Of a DNA stretch of 64,000 bases, positions 28,975 through 63,584 are shown piece by piece. This DNA is from Phaeobacter gallaeciensis DSM 26640 (GTDB lineage: Bacteria; Pseudomonadota; Alphaproteobacteria; Rhodobacterales; Rhodobacteraceae). The DNA is taken from the NCBI RefSeq assembly GCF_000511385.1, contig NC_023137.1, positions 1,929,001 to 1,993,000 of the forward strand, in the 5' to 3' direction. Numbering within the stretch: position 1 is the stretch's first letter; the number at the start of each line of letters is the position of its first letter. The notes beneath the pieces were generated by a model. It searched no databases. It was not told the DNA's origin and worked only from the letters and a program-made list of their open reading frames with translations. The position numbers were made by a program, and so were the translations under genes.

Positions 28975-29179
28975 CGCAAACCACAGCCCAACTGCCGCTA
29001 TTTCATAGAGCGGGCGGGAATTGAGCAACGCGCCCGCAGGATCGATCATTTTTTCAGCACTTCAATAAAAGCCCGCTTTTCTGGCGCCAAAATGAAAACT
29101 GCCGCTTTTTTCAACGCCAGAGTTCCGCTTTGTCAGGATTCAGATCAACACTCAGCCTGAGACGCGGAAGGAACGGCGG

Positions 29180-30361
29180 ATGAACGCAGCCGATACAGCT
29201 TGGATTATCGTGGCCACGGCCCTTGTCCTCTTTATGACATTGCCGGGGCTTGCCCTGTTTTACGGCGGCCTTGTCCGTGCCCGAAATGTGCTCAGCGTGT
29301 TTATGCAATGTTATGCCATTGCCTGTTTGATGAGCGTTCTGTGGCTCGCCTTTGGCTATTCCATTGCCTTTGGTGGCGGCACTTCAGGTATCTGGGGCGG
29401 CCTGGGCAAGATGTTCATGTCCGGCGTCACCGCCGACAGCCTCTCCGGCACACTGCCTGAAGTCCTGTTCTTTGCCTTCCAGATGACCTTCGCCATCATC
29501 ACGCCCGCGCTGATCGTCGGTGCCTATGTCGAACGGGTCGGCTTTGGCTTTGTGCTGGTGTTCTCCGGTCTCTGGATGCTCCTGTGCTACGCACCCGTCG
29601 TACATTGGATCTGGGGCGGCGGCATGCTGGCCGATGGCGGTATCTTTGGTGAAGTCGGCGTGCGCGACTTTGCCGGTGGCATCGTGGTGCATGAAACCGC
29701 AGGTCTGGCCGCGCTGATCATCGCGGTCTTCCTTGGCCCACGCAAGAACCGCACCACCCCGCCGCATAACCCCGGCTATGTCTTCATCGGGGCGGCTATG
29801 CTCTGGGTTGGGTGGTTCGGCTTCAACGGTGGCTCGCAGCTGGCCGCAGACGGTGGCGCGGCGATGGCGCTGACCGTCACCCATATCTCTGCCGCCACCG
29901 CCTCGCTGACCTGGGCGCTGTGGGAGAAGATCAAATACGGCAAGGCGTCCATGGTCGGCCTCGTCACCGGCACCATTGCGGGCCTTGCCTCCATCACGCC
30001 AGCCTCCGGTTTTGTCGGCCCGGTCGAGGCGCTGGTGATCGGCGCCGTTGCAGGCATCCTCTGCCAGGAGGCCGTGAACCTTGTGCGCAATGTTCTGAAG
30101 ATCGACGACACGCTGGATGTCTTTGCGGTGCACGGCGTCGGTGGCATCTTTGGTACCATCATGATCGCGGTCTTTGGTGCAGGTAGCTGGTTCGCACAGC
30201 TTGGCGGCCTCGCGATTGTCGGCATCTTTACCGCCGTCGTGACCGTCGTTCTGGTCAAGATCACCGCCGCGATCACCCCGCTGCGCGTCGACCTGGAGAC
30301 CGAGACGAACGGTCTGGATATCACCGTCCACGGCGAACGCGCCTATGACATGACCAGTTGA
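29180..30361 (+). CDS. amtB: Ammonium transporter AmtB
   Basis: 393 residues, 11 predicted membrane helices. The N-terminus lacks the long cleavable signal seen in E. coli AmtB and starts directly with helix 1 (AWIIVATALVLFMTLPGLALFYGGLVR). The pore histidines are in FAGGIVVHETAGLAALI and FAVHGVGGIFG, and the signature is WVGWFGFNGGSQLAADGGAA. It moves ammonium and normally docks a PII protein, but no glnK/glnB gene adjoins it. GGAAGGA lies just before the start. The 205-bp upstream region (28975-29179) shows no sigma-54 consensus, in keeping with the GAFTGA-less NtrC in this window. Confidence 0.96.
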   Translation: MNAADTAWIIVATALVLFMTLPGLALFYGGLVRARNVLSVFMQCYAIACLMSVLWLAFGYSIAFGGGTSGIWGGLGKMFMSGVTADSLSGTLPEVLFFAFQMTFAIITPALIVGAYVERVGFGFVLVFSGLWMLLCYAPVVHWIWGGGMLADGGIFGEVGVRDFAGGIVVHETAGLAALIIAVFLGPRKNRTTPPHNPGYVFIGAAMLWVGWFGFNGGSQLAADGGAAMALTVTHISAATASLTWALWEKIKYGKASMVGLVTGTIAGLASITPASGFVGPVEALVIGAVAGILCQEAVNLVRNVLKIDDTLDVFAVHGVGGIFGTIMIAVFGAGSWFAQLGGLAIVGIFTAVVTVVLVKITAAITPLRVDLETETNGLDITVHGERAYDMTS

Positions 30362-60343: not shown

Positions 60344-60420
60344 GGCAAAAACCTTTTGCATCTGGGAACTGGCCCCCTATGTATTGGGAACAGCGCGTAA
60401 GGGAAAGCCCGAGGTACCCA

Positions 60421-60873
60421 ATGTCCGGCGAGACCGATCTGATAAAACTCTACTCCGCACGGATCTTGGCGCTGGCCGCCGATATTCCGCATCTGGAGCG
60501 CCTTGAATCCCCGGATGTGACGGTGAAAAAACGCTCCCCCCTCTGTGGCTCGACGGTGACGGTGGATCTTCAGATCAAGGATGGCGCAATTGCCGCCTTC
60601 GGTCAGGACGTCAAAGCCTGCGCACTGGGTCAGGCCTCCGCCGCGGTGGTCGGCGAGGTCATCCTTGGCCGTACCCTGCCTGAGGTCGAGTGCGCGCGTC
60701 AGCAACTGAAGGCAATGCTAACGGAGGATGGCCTGGTCCCGGATGCGCCCTTCGACGGGTTTGAGGTACTGATCCCCGCGCGGGAGTTCAAGAACCGCCA
60801 CGCCTCGATCCTGCTGGCGCTGGATGCCACCTATGAGGCGATGCAGACCCATCAGGAACAGACCTGCGCCTAA
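60421..60873 (+). CDS. IscU/SufU-like iron-sulfur scaffold protein
   Basis: 150 residues of the NifU-N/IscU fold. The three ligand cysteines occur in the usual spacing: SPLCGSTVTVDLQ (about 41), KACALGQASAAVVGE (about 66) and EVECARQQL (about 89). The C-terminal part (FEVLIPAREFKNRHASILLALDATYEAM) is typical of the alphaproteobacterial SUF-associated form. A GAGG seven bases before ATG 60421 decides the start. It sits away from other Fe-S genes in this window. The 306-bp gap downstream (60874-61179) holds only the terminator of the small minus-strand gene and GC-rich dyads. Confidence 0.88.
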   Translation: MSGETDLIKLYSARILALAADIPHLERLESPDVTVKKRSPLCGSTVTVDLQIKDGAIAAFGQDVKACALGQASAAVVGEVILGRTLPEVECARQQLKAMLTEDGLVPDAPFDGFEVLIPAREFKNRHASILLALDATYEAMQTHQEQTCA

Positions 60874-60985
60874 GCGGTCTGCGCTCAAGCCTGACCACTG
60901 CTGACCCGCAAGTATGCTACGTGGCGCCGACGGTCCCGACATCCGCGCGCGGCTGTCGTCGTATCCATAGTCCACGAACCACACC

Positions 60986-61019
60986 AAAAAACCGCCGCAC
61001 ACCCAAAGGGTGGCGGCGG
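60986..61019 (-). terminator. Terminator of the 40-codon membrane-protein gene
   Basis: A 12-bp stem with one bulge (60992-61004 with 61008-61019), three-base loop, and a run of six As (60986-60991) that becomes a U-tail on the minus strand. It can only serve a minus-strand transcript, namely that of 61180-61302. Confidence 0.85.
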
Positions 61020-61179
61020 CAGTATGCTCTCTCATGCGGGACCCGAACGGGACCTGTTGACCTGAGGCAGGTCGGCCAGACCGGCAGGCAAACCGGGCAG
61101 GCTTGGGACAGGCGGCCCCGTCCGGCATAAAGAGTGCGATCAGGAAATCTAAAAACTCACAGCTGGCCGGTCGGTCACA

Positions 61180-61302
61180 TCACAGCAGGCCGGGCAGGTG
61201 CAAACCCGCCACCAGCATCACAACCAGAGCCGCCGCGCCGATGGCGTCCTGCAGCAGTGTCGATTGGGCATTCTGAACAGTCGTCTTGATTTGGGTCATC
61301 AT
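61180..61302 (-). CDS. 40-residue single-pass membrane protein, putative SOS-regulated
   Basis: A small gene with AGGAGG seven bases before the first of two adjacent ATGs. The protein begins MMTQIKTTVQNAQSTLLQ (amphipathic, one Lys). It continues with one hydrophobic helix of about 20 residues (AIGAAALVVMLVAGLHLPGLL) and stops, so it is an inner-membrane peptide with a soluble N-terminal helix. It has its own terminator 160 bp downstream and a LexA-like repeat array 71-116 bp upstream. I recognise no named family, though similar short peptides may exist in Rhodobacteraceae. SOS-induced membrane peptides such as SidA (Caulobacter) or TisB (E. coli) are functional analogies only. Confidence 0.75.
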   Translation of the reverse strand: MMTQIKTTVQNAQSTLLQDAIGAAALVVMLVAGLHLPGLL

Positions 61303-61372
61303 GGTACGTCCTCCTGTCTGTCTTGCTATCGCTCTCTGGCGTTTTGTTGCTTATTTGTTCTCACATTCAGCG

Positions 61373-61418
61373 GAACCTGTAAAGAACTTTATAAGAACAT
61401 TTGCGAACAAGAGGGAAC
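61373..61418 (-). promoter_or_regulatory. LexA-type operator array (five phased GAAC/GTTC repeats)
   Basis: GAAC occurs at 61373, 61384, 61395, 61405 and 61415. The first three are spaced as GAAC-N7-GAAC-N7-GAAC, which on the minus strand is two overlapping copies of the alphaproteobacterial LexA box GTTC-N7-GTTC. The last two have N6 spacing. A TATAAA (minus strand, 61393-61388) lies between half-sites, so LexA binding would block a promoter firing toward the 40-codon gene. Confidence 0.7.
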
Positions 61419-61493
61419 AGAAGACAGAGCAAAGCCACAGAACGCCAGCCGCAAGCCCTACGTTTGCGGCCGTTTCCAGCTCAAAAACAGGTG

Positions 61494-63584
61494 CTAACCC
61501 ACCGAAATCAAACGAATGGCCTGATCCTGCTTCATCAGCCACAACAGAACACGCGCCGCCTGCCCTCGTGGACTGGACAGATCAGGGTCAGAGGCCAGCA
61601 ACGCCCGCGCATCACTTTGCGCCACTGCCATCAGACCGGCCTGCCGATCCAGATCAGCGATACGGAATCGCGGCAAACCCGATTGCGCGGTGCCGATAAC
61701 GTCCCCCGCACCGCGCATCTCCAGATCGGTCTCAGCAATGCGAAAGCCATCCTCGGTCTCCCGCAAGATCTCCAGGCGTTTCTGCCCGCCCTTGCTGAGC
61801 GGCGCTTGGTAGAGCAGAAGGCAGGTCGAGGCCGCCTCCCCGCGTCCGACACGTCCACGCAGCTGGTGCAGCTGCGCCAAGCCAAAGATCTCTGCCCGCT
61901 CAATCACCATGATCGAGGCATTGGGCACATTGACCCCCACCTCAATCACCGTGGTCGCGACCAGCACCTTGGTCTCCCCGGCCTGAAACGCCGCCATGGC
62001 CGCGTCTTTCTCTGCCGCTGGCATCTGTCCGTGAACCAAGCCCACCACGCCATCACCCAGCACCGCACGCAGTTGCTTGAACCGTTCCTCGGCAGCGGTC
62101 AGATCCATCACTTCGGATTCTTCGACCAGAGGGCAGACCCAATAGCATTGCCGCTCTTCGTCAATGGCCCCGCGCAGATGGCTGACAACCTCCTGCATGC
62201 GCTCTGTACTGATGACAGCGGTTTTCACCGGCTTGCGCCCGGGTGGCTTTTCATCCAGCACCGACACATCCATATCGCCGTACTGCGTCAGCGCCAACGA
62301 CCGCGGGATCGGCGTTGCGGTCATCACCAGCACATCCGCGCCCTTGCCCTTCTCCGCCAGTTCCATTCGCTGGCGCACACCGAACCGGTGCTGTTCATCG
62401 ACAATCGCCAAGCGCAGATCCTGAAACACGACATCTGGCTGGAATACCGCATGGGTGCCCACCAGGATTTGGATATCACCCCGCGCCAGCGCCGCGCATT
62501 TTGCGGCCCGTTCCCGGCCTTTGTCACGGCCCGTCAAAATCTCCAGCACCACGCCTGCGGTCTCTGCCAGCGGGCGCAGTGCCTCCAGATGCTGACGGGC
62601 CAGAATTTCCGTCGGTGCCATCATCACGCCCTGCCCACCTGCCTCAACTGCGACCAGCAAGGCCATGAAAGCAACCAGAGTTTTCCCGGCACCGACGTCG
62701 CCCTGCAACAGCCGGTTCATCCGCGCATCTCGCGCCATATCGGCGCTGATCTCCTCAATCGCGCGGGCCTGCGCGCCGGTGGGGCGATACGGTAAGGCAG
62801 CCAATACCCGCGATTGCAGACGGCCATTGCCCAGACTGCTGCGCCCAGGCAGTCCACGATCCCGTAGCCGTGCCAGCGCCAACGTCAGCTGATGGGCAAA
62901 CAGCTCATCATAGGCCAGTCGCGTCCGCCCCGGCGATTCAGCCGCCAGTGCATCCAGCCCATCAGGGGTATGTGCAGCGACCAAGGCCTCCTGCCACGTC
63001 GGCCAGTCCTCCTGTCGGATCTGCGAGGGGTCAGCCCATTCCTGAAGCTCTGGCAGCCGCGACAGCGCGCTTTGCGCCGCCTTGAACATCGTCTTTTGCG
63101 AGACCCCATGGGTCAGATGATAGACTGGCTCAAACTCGGGAATATCCCCCGCCTCAGCCACCGGCACCATATGATCGGGATGCACCATCTGGGCGATGCC
63201 ATCAAACAGCTCCAGCTTGCCCGACACCACCCGGCGCGCGCCCTCCGGCAGCTGCGCCTCAAGGTAGCGGCTACGCCCGTGGAAGAACACCAGCTGGAAT
63301 TCTTCCTCCGCATCGCTCACATGGATCCGGTAGGCGCCGCCCTTGTTGCGCGCAGGCCGATGTGCACCGATGGTGACCTCCACCGTGGCAACAGTGGGGT
63401 AATCAAGCCCACGAATACTGTCGCGACGACGTCGATCCACAATCGAATAAGGCAGCGAATACAACAGGTCGCGCGGCGTCTCTATATCGATCTGCCCGAA
63501 ATGCTGCGCCGTCTTCGGGCCGATTCCCTGTAGTGTTTCCAACCCGGCAAACAGCGGAAACAGGATCTCTGGTCTGCCGCTCAT
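61494..63584 (-). CDS. recG: ATP-dependent DNA helicase RecG
   Basis: A 696-residue branch-migration helicase that regresses stalled forks. The N-terminal wedge/OB domain contains LQGIGPKTAQHFGQIDIETPRDLLYSLPYSIVDRR. The helicase core has Walker A LLQGDVGAGKTLVAFMA (about residue 297), DEQHRFGVRQR, TATPIPRSLALTQYGDMDVS and RGRVGRGEAAS, and the C-terminal RecG motif has EMRGAGDVIGTAQSGLPRFRIADL. It starts within the ligA stop (ATGA), so it is coupled to ligA. The stop is followed by the LexA-like array. Confidence 0.97.
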   Translation of the reverse strand: MSGRPEILFPLFAGLETLQGIGPKTAQHFGQIDIETPRDLLYSLPYSIVDRRRRDSIRGLDYPTVATVEVTIGAHRPARNKGGAYRIHVSDAEEEFQLVFFHGRSRYLEAQLPEGARRVVSGKLELFDGIAQMVHPDHMVPVAEAGDIPEFEPVYHLTHGVSQKTMFKAAQSALSRLPELQEWADPSQIRQEDWPTWQEALVAAHTPDGLDALAAESPGRTRLAYDELFAHQLTLALARLRDRGLPGRSSLGNGRLQSRVLAALPYRPTGAQARAIEEISADMARDARMNRLLQGDVGAGKTLVAFMALLVAVEAGGQGVMMAPTEILARQHLEALRPLAETAGVVLEILTGRDKGRERAAKCAALARGDIQILVGTHAVFQPDVVFQDLRLAIVDEQHRFGVRQRMELAEKGKGADVLVMTATPIPRSLALTQYGDMDVSVLDEKPPGRKPVKTAVISTERMQEVVSHLRGAIDEERQCYWVCPLVEESEVMDLTAAEERFKQLRAVLGDGVVGLVHGQMPAAEKDAAMAAFQAGETKVLVATTVIEVGVNVPNASIMVIERAEIFGLAQLHQLRGRVGRGEAASTCLLLYQAPLSKGGQKRLEILRETEDGFRIAETDLEMRGAGDVIGTAQSGLPRFRIADLDRQAGLMAVAQSDARALLASDPDLSSPRGQAARVLLWLMKQDQAIRLISVG

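Follow-up and report, generated by a model that had tools for sequence, protein, structure and literature searches.

A putative LexA-controlled message behind recG in roseobacters and their relatives, carrying a 40-residue membrane peptide and a structured 3'-UTR RNA

The DNA behind recG of Phaeobacter gallaeciensis and of most of its family appears to encode one message under a LexA-type promoter, in which the gene for a 40-residue membrane peptide is followed by a structured RNA. That a single SOS transcript delivers both effectors, a membrane peptide of the SidA kind and an RNA in its 3' UTR comparable to DinR of Klebsiella, we regard as an even chance. The locus lies in a stretch of 64,000 nucleotides (hereafter the window), for which an SOS-controlled membrane peptide had been predicted from the letters alone. 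What this original prediction observed in the sequence is largely borne out; it missed the structured RNA, which lies outside its coordinates and fills the rest of the presumed transcript. Both kinds of element are known, SOS membrane peptides as well as SOS 3'-UTR RNAs. Their combination, at such a depth of conservation, was to our knowledge not known before, and we know of no earlier widely conserved structured RNA that stands behind a LexA-type promoter and is tied to a peptide.

Results

A LexA-type promoter upstream of the peptide gene

The features of the locus are collected in Table 1. The five GAAC repeats that had been predicted upstream of the gene were found on the plus strand with starts at 61373, 61384, 61395, 61405 and 61415, that is, with the claimed spacings of 11, 11, 10 and 10 bp. 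Two pairs of them read on the minus strand as exact GTTC-N7-GTTC, again as had been proposed. Furthermore, a sixth half-site, GTTC at 61357 on the plus strand, stands in the inverted orientation; it is part of GAACAAATAAGCAAC and is kept in relatives. The TATAAA pointed out in the original prediction does lie between half-sites, but the family consensus at that place is TcAaAAA, from which it differs; it is probably not the -10 element and was dropped as such. We read TTTAC and GAGAAC as the likely -35 and -10 elements, because in these genomes lexA is preceded by TTGACA and, about 17 nt away (counted by eye), by TAGAAC, which lies within the box. A simple sigma-70 scan listed no promoter at the peptide locus.

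Table 1 Features of the peptide and RNA locus in the window
Feature	Position	Strand	Basis or remark
Extra upstream half-sites GTTC-N6-GTTC-N6-GTTC	61395..61418	-	Lengthen the array; a single GTTC-N6 step before the core box is frequent among family members
LexA-type box 1, exact GTTCTTATAAAGTTC	61384..61398	-	Core box throughout the family; directly precedes the likely -35
Second exact GTTC-N7-GTTC, GTTCTTTACAGGTTC	61373..61387	-	Overlaps the likely -35; last half-site outside the family consensus
Likely -35, TTTAC	61379..61383	-	Analogy with TTGACA/TAGAAC of lexA promoters
Likely -10, GAGAAC	61357..61362	-	Inferred from position and spacing
Inverted near LexA box GAACAAATAAGCAAC (GAAC-N7-CAAC)	61346..61360	-	Overlaps the likely -10
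Shine-Dalgarno AGGAGG	61310..61315	-	Ends 7 nt before the ATG
Gene of the 40-aa membrane peptide	61180..61302	-	ORF and profile; D19 and G22 invariant in a 38-sequence alignment
Structured RNA: closing stem, three hairpins, C-rich loops (CUGUCCC, CUGCCU-type)	61019..61146	-	Covariance model
Intrinsic-terminator-like hairpin, then T6	60986..61019	-	Folding
recG	61494..63584	-	Upstream neighbour, same strand
NifU/IscU-like gene (presumed name)	60379..60873	+	Convergent downstream neighbour

In the window, 1.35 exact GTTC-N7-GTTC would be expected and three are present, a number equalled or exceeded in 14 of 100 shuffles. Since the motif is thus not significant within these 64 kb alone, the comparison across loci had to decide. 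The third copy, at 29171-29185 on the minus strand, is probably a chance occurrence.

For this comparison, 170 distinct loci were used, which remained from 199 after removal of one non-homologue and of duplicates (among them L142, equal to L125, and L151, equal to L133). An exact GTTC-N7-GTTC stands at most 160 nt upstream of the frame in 165 of the 170 loci, as against 0.0014 expected per 160-nt strand, an expectation computed from the flanks of the same loci. The longer form GTTC-N6-GTTC-N7-GTTC is present in 151; the direct array has three half-sites in 80 loci, four in 73, two in 15 and five in 2. The consensus of the GTTCTTTAC loci is GTTC.CaAATGTTCTcAaAAAGTTCTTTACa, followed by about 13 weakly conserved bases and then by aTGAGAACAAA.gg.CAACAaa. 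Of 151 distinct loci with GTTCTTTAC, 142 have GAGAAC, or a sequence close to it, at a distance of 16 nt, 4 at 17 nt and 1 at 3 nt; in the other 4 the element was not found. The inverted GAAC-N7-[CG]AAC was observed in 161 of the 170 loci, with CAAC in 157 and exact GAAC in 6, and the direct and the inverted box occur together in 158.

The same exact box was present at recA and at lexA in all eight genomes checked. In the P. gallaeciensis genome, WGTTC-N7-GTTCT has 13 sites and its reversed control pattern 3; of the 13, one is at recA, and another lies about 100 bp before a gene that, recognised by eye, we take to be uvrA. This genome has further LexA-box-like sites (among others G000:C1:2107157, 2297904 and 2576156, C2:64887 and C7:3715). 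Judged by eye, one of the further sites precedes a presumably radical-SAM-like gene by about 30 bp, a second precedes a DNA-methylase-like gene by about 45 bp, and a third stands next to an HTH-repressor-like gene. According to excerpts of PMC12700426, GTTCN7GTTC is the LexA motif of Caulobacter, and approximately 97% of the Caulobacter SOS promoters carry a single box. The peptide promoter thus has the operator of the alphaproteobacterial LexA (SOS) regulon. Because the box is found at 165 of the loci and at recA and lexA, and an inverted near-box lies over the likely -10, LexA control of the peptide promoter is very likely, and the claim to this effect is strongly supported by the comparison, including the near-invariant spacing of the motifs.

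The 40-codon frame encodes a predicted membrane peptide

The predicted gene with its AGGAGG was confirmed as an ORF of 40 codons with an ATG start. A Shine-Dalgarno-like stretch precedes the frame in 159 of the 170 loci. In the 143 loci whose frame has 40 codons, the first, second and third codon positions diverge by 0.39, 0.23 and 0.57, respectively. The third position is the most divergent and the second the least, which is the mark of a translated and selected protein; the frame is almost certainly a real protein.

One hydrophobic helix had been proposed for the peptide. Indeed, a hydrophobic stretch is present (best 19-residue mean 2.06, from residue 21), and the AlphaFold model is a single helix of residues 2-39 with a mean pLDDT of 85.3. 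The net charge of residues 1-18 is +1 or +2 in 130 of the 170 loci, and in all 170 the tail that begins with residue 34 is uncharged; this charge pattern suggests that the peptide starts in the cytoplasm and ends in the periplasm. The locus therefore unites a short protein, one predicted membrane helix and an SOS-type operator, the features by which a SidA-type peptide would be recognised. No significant match of the peptide was obtained in Pfam, NCBIfam, PHROGs or PDB (best E values: PHROGs 0.12, Pfam 0.28, PDB 4.4), and a viral fold library contained no significant relative. A search of a public protein set yielded 885 proteins, and the best 120 of these 885, where named, were called 'hypothetical' or 'uncharacterized protein'.

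The peptide gene is conserved across the family

At E ≤ 0.01, a translated search with the peptide gave matches in 298 of the 394 family genomes. A peptide profile matched in 138 of 149 genomes of the order, and in ten of the eleven missed genomes a peptide that is shorter or divergent occupies the place instead. We inspected the region directly behind recG in 12 genomes, namely the 11 without a profile match and one with a weak match. Eleven of these have a promoter of this type and a short frame that is hydrophobic and contains the D-x-x-G core; some of the frames have just 31 residues. The remaining one (L241) lacks both the promoter and the peptide frame, an outcome that speaks against the prediction in this genome and not in the other eleven. 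The short or divergent peptides that the searches missed or matched weakly are those of L239, L240 and L242-L250, in which the promoter and the place after recG are kept.

To look beyond the family, 289 genomes of the class were drawn; the matches were four members of the family and a single partial one within a longer frame. With a loose peptide profile (E up to 1), 176 of 387 genomes of the class were counted, six of them family members; among the matches listed in this draw, those from outside the family were weak (best 3.8e-4) and mostly partial, inside long frames. In neither of these two draws did the profiles give a convincing peptide homologue outside the family. Given the matches in 298 of 394 and 138 of 149 genomes, the versions at the missed loci and the lack of real matches outside the family, the peptide gene, judged by this sequence distribution, is a core gene of the family.

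The genomic place is equally constant. All 170 loci have the C-terminus of RecG upstream of the peptide, on its strand, and recG was correctly placed upstream in the window by the original prediction. The NifU-like gene converges from downstream in 147 of the 170.

A structured RNA fills the rest of the presumed message

A dedicated terminator had been claimed for the gene. None was found right behind the ORF; the terminator-like hairpin with its T6 lies about 160 nt beyond the stop codon, and a structured RNA of about 130 nt occupies the DNA between them. The closing stem of this RNA consists of three blocks with a C-rich bulge and is followed by three hairpins.

A covariance model (R1) was built from 22 sequences, and a refined model was used to search the 149 genomes. 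In the window, the RNA model gave one match at E ≤ 0.001, that at the locus (35.8 bits, E 1.9e-6). At an E of up to 1, R1 matched where expected in 91 of 100 loci; this count is 94 matches less three that lie off the 3' UTR (L016 at 2489, L020 at 2880 and L181 at 106), and it includes the seed sequences, which were among the searched sources and match by construction.

In 75 distinct RNA sequences, 86.8% of the cells were paired, compared with 67.9% in shuffled and 34-46% in slid alignments. Cells changed on both sides numbered 378 against 105 after shuffling, and all 30 pairs had such changes. The covariation score was 0.446, as against 0.169 shuffled and 0.07-0.09 slid. None of 500 shuffles reached any of these pairing or covariation values, and the set of 94 sequences behaved alike; the alignment was fitted to the model, which favours structure, but the closing stem already showed compensating changes in the seed alignments made before the model. 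Pairing is better in this stem (88-96%) than in the hairpins (58-88%). The fold of the RNA in the window has a z of -4.3 with the terminator and -2.3 without it; across 60 loci, the mean z of the terminator-free part was -1.6 (27% below -2), compared with +0.5 for the peptide frame. It is thus covariation, rather than folding energy, that mainly supports the structure. Taken together, these findings leave hardly any doubt that 61019-61146 is a real structured RNA.

The loops are conserved also in sequence: CUG[CU]C[CU] occurs 3.04 times per RNA vs 0.49 times in shuffles, and its complement 0.018 times (114 thinned loci). Rfam 15 has no match in 60600-61700 apart from a chance mir-2820 at 60800-60865, with 20.6 bits against a cut-off of 84. 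The RNA would be suitable as a new RNA family.

Under strict filters, the RNA was found in 101 of the 149 genomes, with exactly one copy in each. All 101 copies are on the strand of the peptide and follow its match at a distance of -2 to 69 nt (median 9 nt), and none was found away from the peptide message in the 149 genomes. The 48 genomes without a match owe this at least partly to divergence and to the strict filters. With the filters off, the recG surroundings of the 12 genomes with missed or weak peptides gave weak RNA matches (best E 0.0036). Two loci, L154 and L189, have the promoter and the peptide and neither the RNA nor the terminator, so that the peptide can stand alone. These natural deletions could help to separate the functions of peptide and RNA.

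The end of the message is conserved as well. A GC-rich hairpin with a T run was detected by a regular expression in 166 of the 170 loci; the four that fail are L032, where the contig ends, L163, where another hairpin with a T run is visible, and L154 and L189, which have none. A T run of at least six was present in 142 of 157 loci with a stretch of 120-240 nt after the stop codon. A simple terminator scan listed none in 60900-61500, nor the hairpin at 60986-61019. The single message would be about 365 nt long, from approximately 61350, the presumed start, to 60986. Its 3' end, with an RNA and a terminator behind a LexA-type promoter, has the arrangement of DinR, provided that the parts are transcribed together, as their positions suggest.

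Candidate targets of the RNA

ftsZ was chosen as the candidate target before looking, following DinR. Its start region has AGGCGG in 12 of 12 RNA-bearing genomes and ACAGGCGG in 11, and it can pair with the loops. We ranked it among 338, 330, 326 and 313 sampled genes of P. gallaeciensis, G055, G204 and G278, respectively, with gene starts called crudely (Table 2). By loop energy, ftsZ ranked only within the top 11, 12, 9 and 26% of genes. Furthermore, AGGCGG is also kept at ftsZ of G174, G026 and G397, whose loci are without the RNA (in G026, the locus alone was searched), and its conservation is thus not explained by the RNA. ftsZ as the target is accordingly not supported. ACAGGCGG is rare at the other sampled gene starts (1 of 1307); the ftsZ loci are L279-L290 and L371-L382.

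Table 2 Fraction of sampled genes that score as well as ftsZ or better
Measure	P. gallaeciensis	G055	G204	G278
Loop energy	0.109	0.115	0.086	0.262
Longest perfect match to the loops	0.021	0.152	0.322	0.233
Longest perfect match to the whole RNA	0.071	0.585	0.617	0.633
G-U allowed	0.612	0.479	0.267	0.597

Pairing of the RNA with the start region of its own peptide gene did not stand out: across 50 loci, cognate pairs reached -25.3 kcal/mol and non-cognate pairs -26.2 kcal/mol, so the cognate ones were no better. As neither ftsZ nor the own start region is special, it is from the conservation of the loops that we infer a role in trans, to which we give slightly less than an even chance.

Discussion

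A possible course of events can be drawn from these results. LexA bound to the direct GTTC-N7-GTTC at the -35 and to the inverted near-box at the -10 would keep the promoter shut. Upon DNA damage, RecA-driven cleavage of LexA would open it, and the message would be translated into a single-helix peptide of 40 residues in the inner membrane. The peptide would most likely serve as a checkpoint effector that, in the manner of SidA, acts at the membrane, for instance on the late divisome; for the divisome in particular, which is named by analogy, our expectation stays a little below half. The remainder of the message would fold into the conserved RNA, showing its C-rich loops and ending in the terminator, and this RNA would most likely base-pair with G-rich translation start sites, either as the full message or after processing.

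In the furthest-reaching form of this reading, one LexA-controlled message delivers two independent effectors, a peptide that halts division or membrane work and a trans-acting RNA with C-rich loops; we give it a probability of roughly 0.4. The peptide might instead be the sole effector, and the RNA a cis element for the stability or the translation control of its mRNA. The RNA starts a median of 9 nt behind the peptide match and was found nowhere else in the 149 genomes, and L154 and L189 keep promoter and peptide without it, as such an element would allow. However, its loop sequences are conserved at 3.04 vs 0.49, which seems to exceed the need of a mere stabiliser, and its pairing with cognate start regions is no better than with non-cognate ones. 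A purely cis-acting RNA is hence a plausible though doubtful explanation. The reverse, in which the ORF is a mere leader and the RNA the whole function, could appeal to the shortness of the frame and to the strong covariation of the RNA, but it is hardly credible in view of the codon positions, of which the third diverges most and the second least, and of a protein profile that matches more genomes than the RNA does (138 vs 101 of 149).

The nature of the peptide and of its regulator can also be read differently. As a small hydrophobic peptide with a single helix under LexA-type control, it could be a depolariser that slows the damaged cell, rather than a division inhibitor; excerpts of PMC3567139 describe DinQ as a toxic SOS peptide with a single transmembrane segment that depolarises the membrane. 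TisB and DinQ, however, belong to type I toxin-antitoxin loci with antisense RNAs, and an informal look at the upstream and downstream stretches noticed no conserved antisense partner. Moreover, conservation at one locus and the invariant D19 and G22 would be more in keeping with a specific protein partner than with a generic pore, and we consider depolarisation unlikely. That the GTTC array serves another regulator than LexA, which would put the gene outside the SOS response, is very improbable: the extra half-sites with N6 spacing and the rigidly placed inverted near-box do exceed a plain LexA box, but the same exact box stands at recA and lexA in 8 of 8 genomes and is, according to excerpts of PMC12700426, the LexA motif of Caulobacter.

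If the reading of two independent effectors is true, a dual-function SOS transcript has been kept in one place after recG, with the peptide in nearly all and the RNA in most of the family. The locus is a concrete, single-copy and nearly universal candidate for the stop of division at the time of DNA damage in roseobacters and their relatives, which are abundant marine bacteria. As the RNA is tied to the peptide in what looks like one message, the two could be separated by simple mutations, a stop codon on the one hand and loop changes on the other.

In searches of the open-licence PMC literature, we recognised no description of the peptide or the RNA, nor did they list an account of the way in which roseobacters and related bacteria halt division once DNA is damaged. 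The peptide and RNA locus is not named in excerpts of the Dinoroseobacter LexA-site study (PMC6473078), and excerpts of papers on Ruegeria sRNAs and on bacterial structured RNAs (PMC4809877, PMC2864571) name no such locus.

Several known systems share parts of this arrangement. CcsR of Rhodobacter sphaeroides is an sRNA with C-rich loops, and the pyrimidine-rich loops of both RNAs suit purine-rich start sites; the loop motif and the locus of CcsR are different ones. TisB of Escherichia coli is an SOS-induced membrane peptide of a type I toxin-antitoxin locus. The same is said of DinQ of E. coli in excerpts of PMC3567139. Like both of them, the locus described here combines SOS-type control with a short membrane peptide; their antitoxins are antisense RNAs, whereas the RNA here is on the same strand and presumably in the same message. 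With DinR of Klebsiella, known to us from excerpts of PMC10907235, it has in common that a short SOS message of the LexA type carries an RNA at its 3' end and stops at an intrinsic-type terminator. The host message of DinR is unrelated, however, and the stretch of it that pairs with ftsZ is described there as Klebsiella-specific, whereas the fold found here covaries across most of the family and carries C-rich loops.

SidA of Caulobacter crescentus, according to excerpts of PMC4211646, is an SOS-induced division inhibitor of 29 residues in the inner membrane, which interacts with FtsW. Both peptides are alphaproteobacterial and short, with a membrane helix and LexA-type control by GTTC-N7-GTTC; the peptide described here differs in its 40 residues, its promoter of several boxes and the structured RNA behind it. 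The SidA- or TisB-like character claimed in the original prediction is an analogy without sequence support; the profiles find no convincing homologue elsewhere in the class. By this analogy, the peptide most resembles SidA in its size, its setting and its control.
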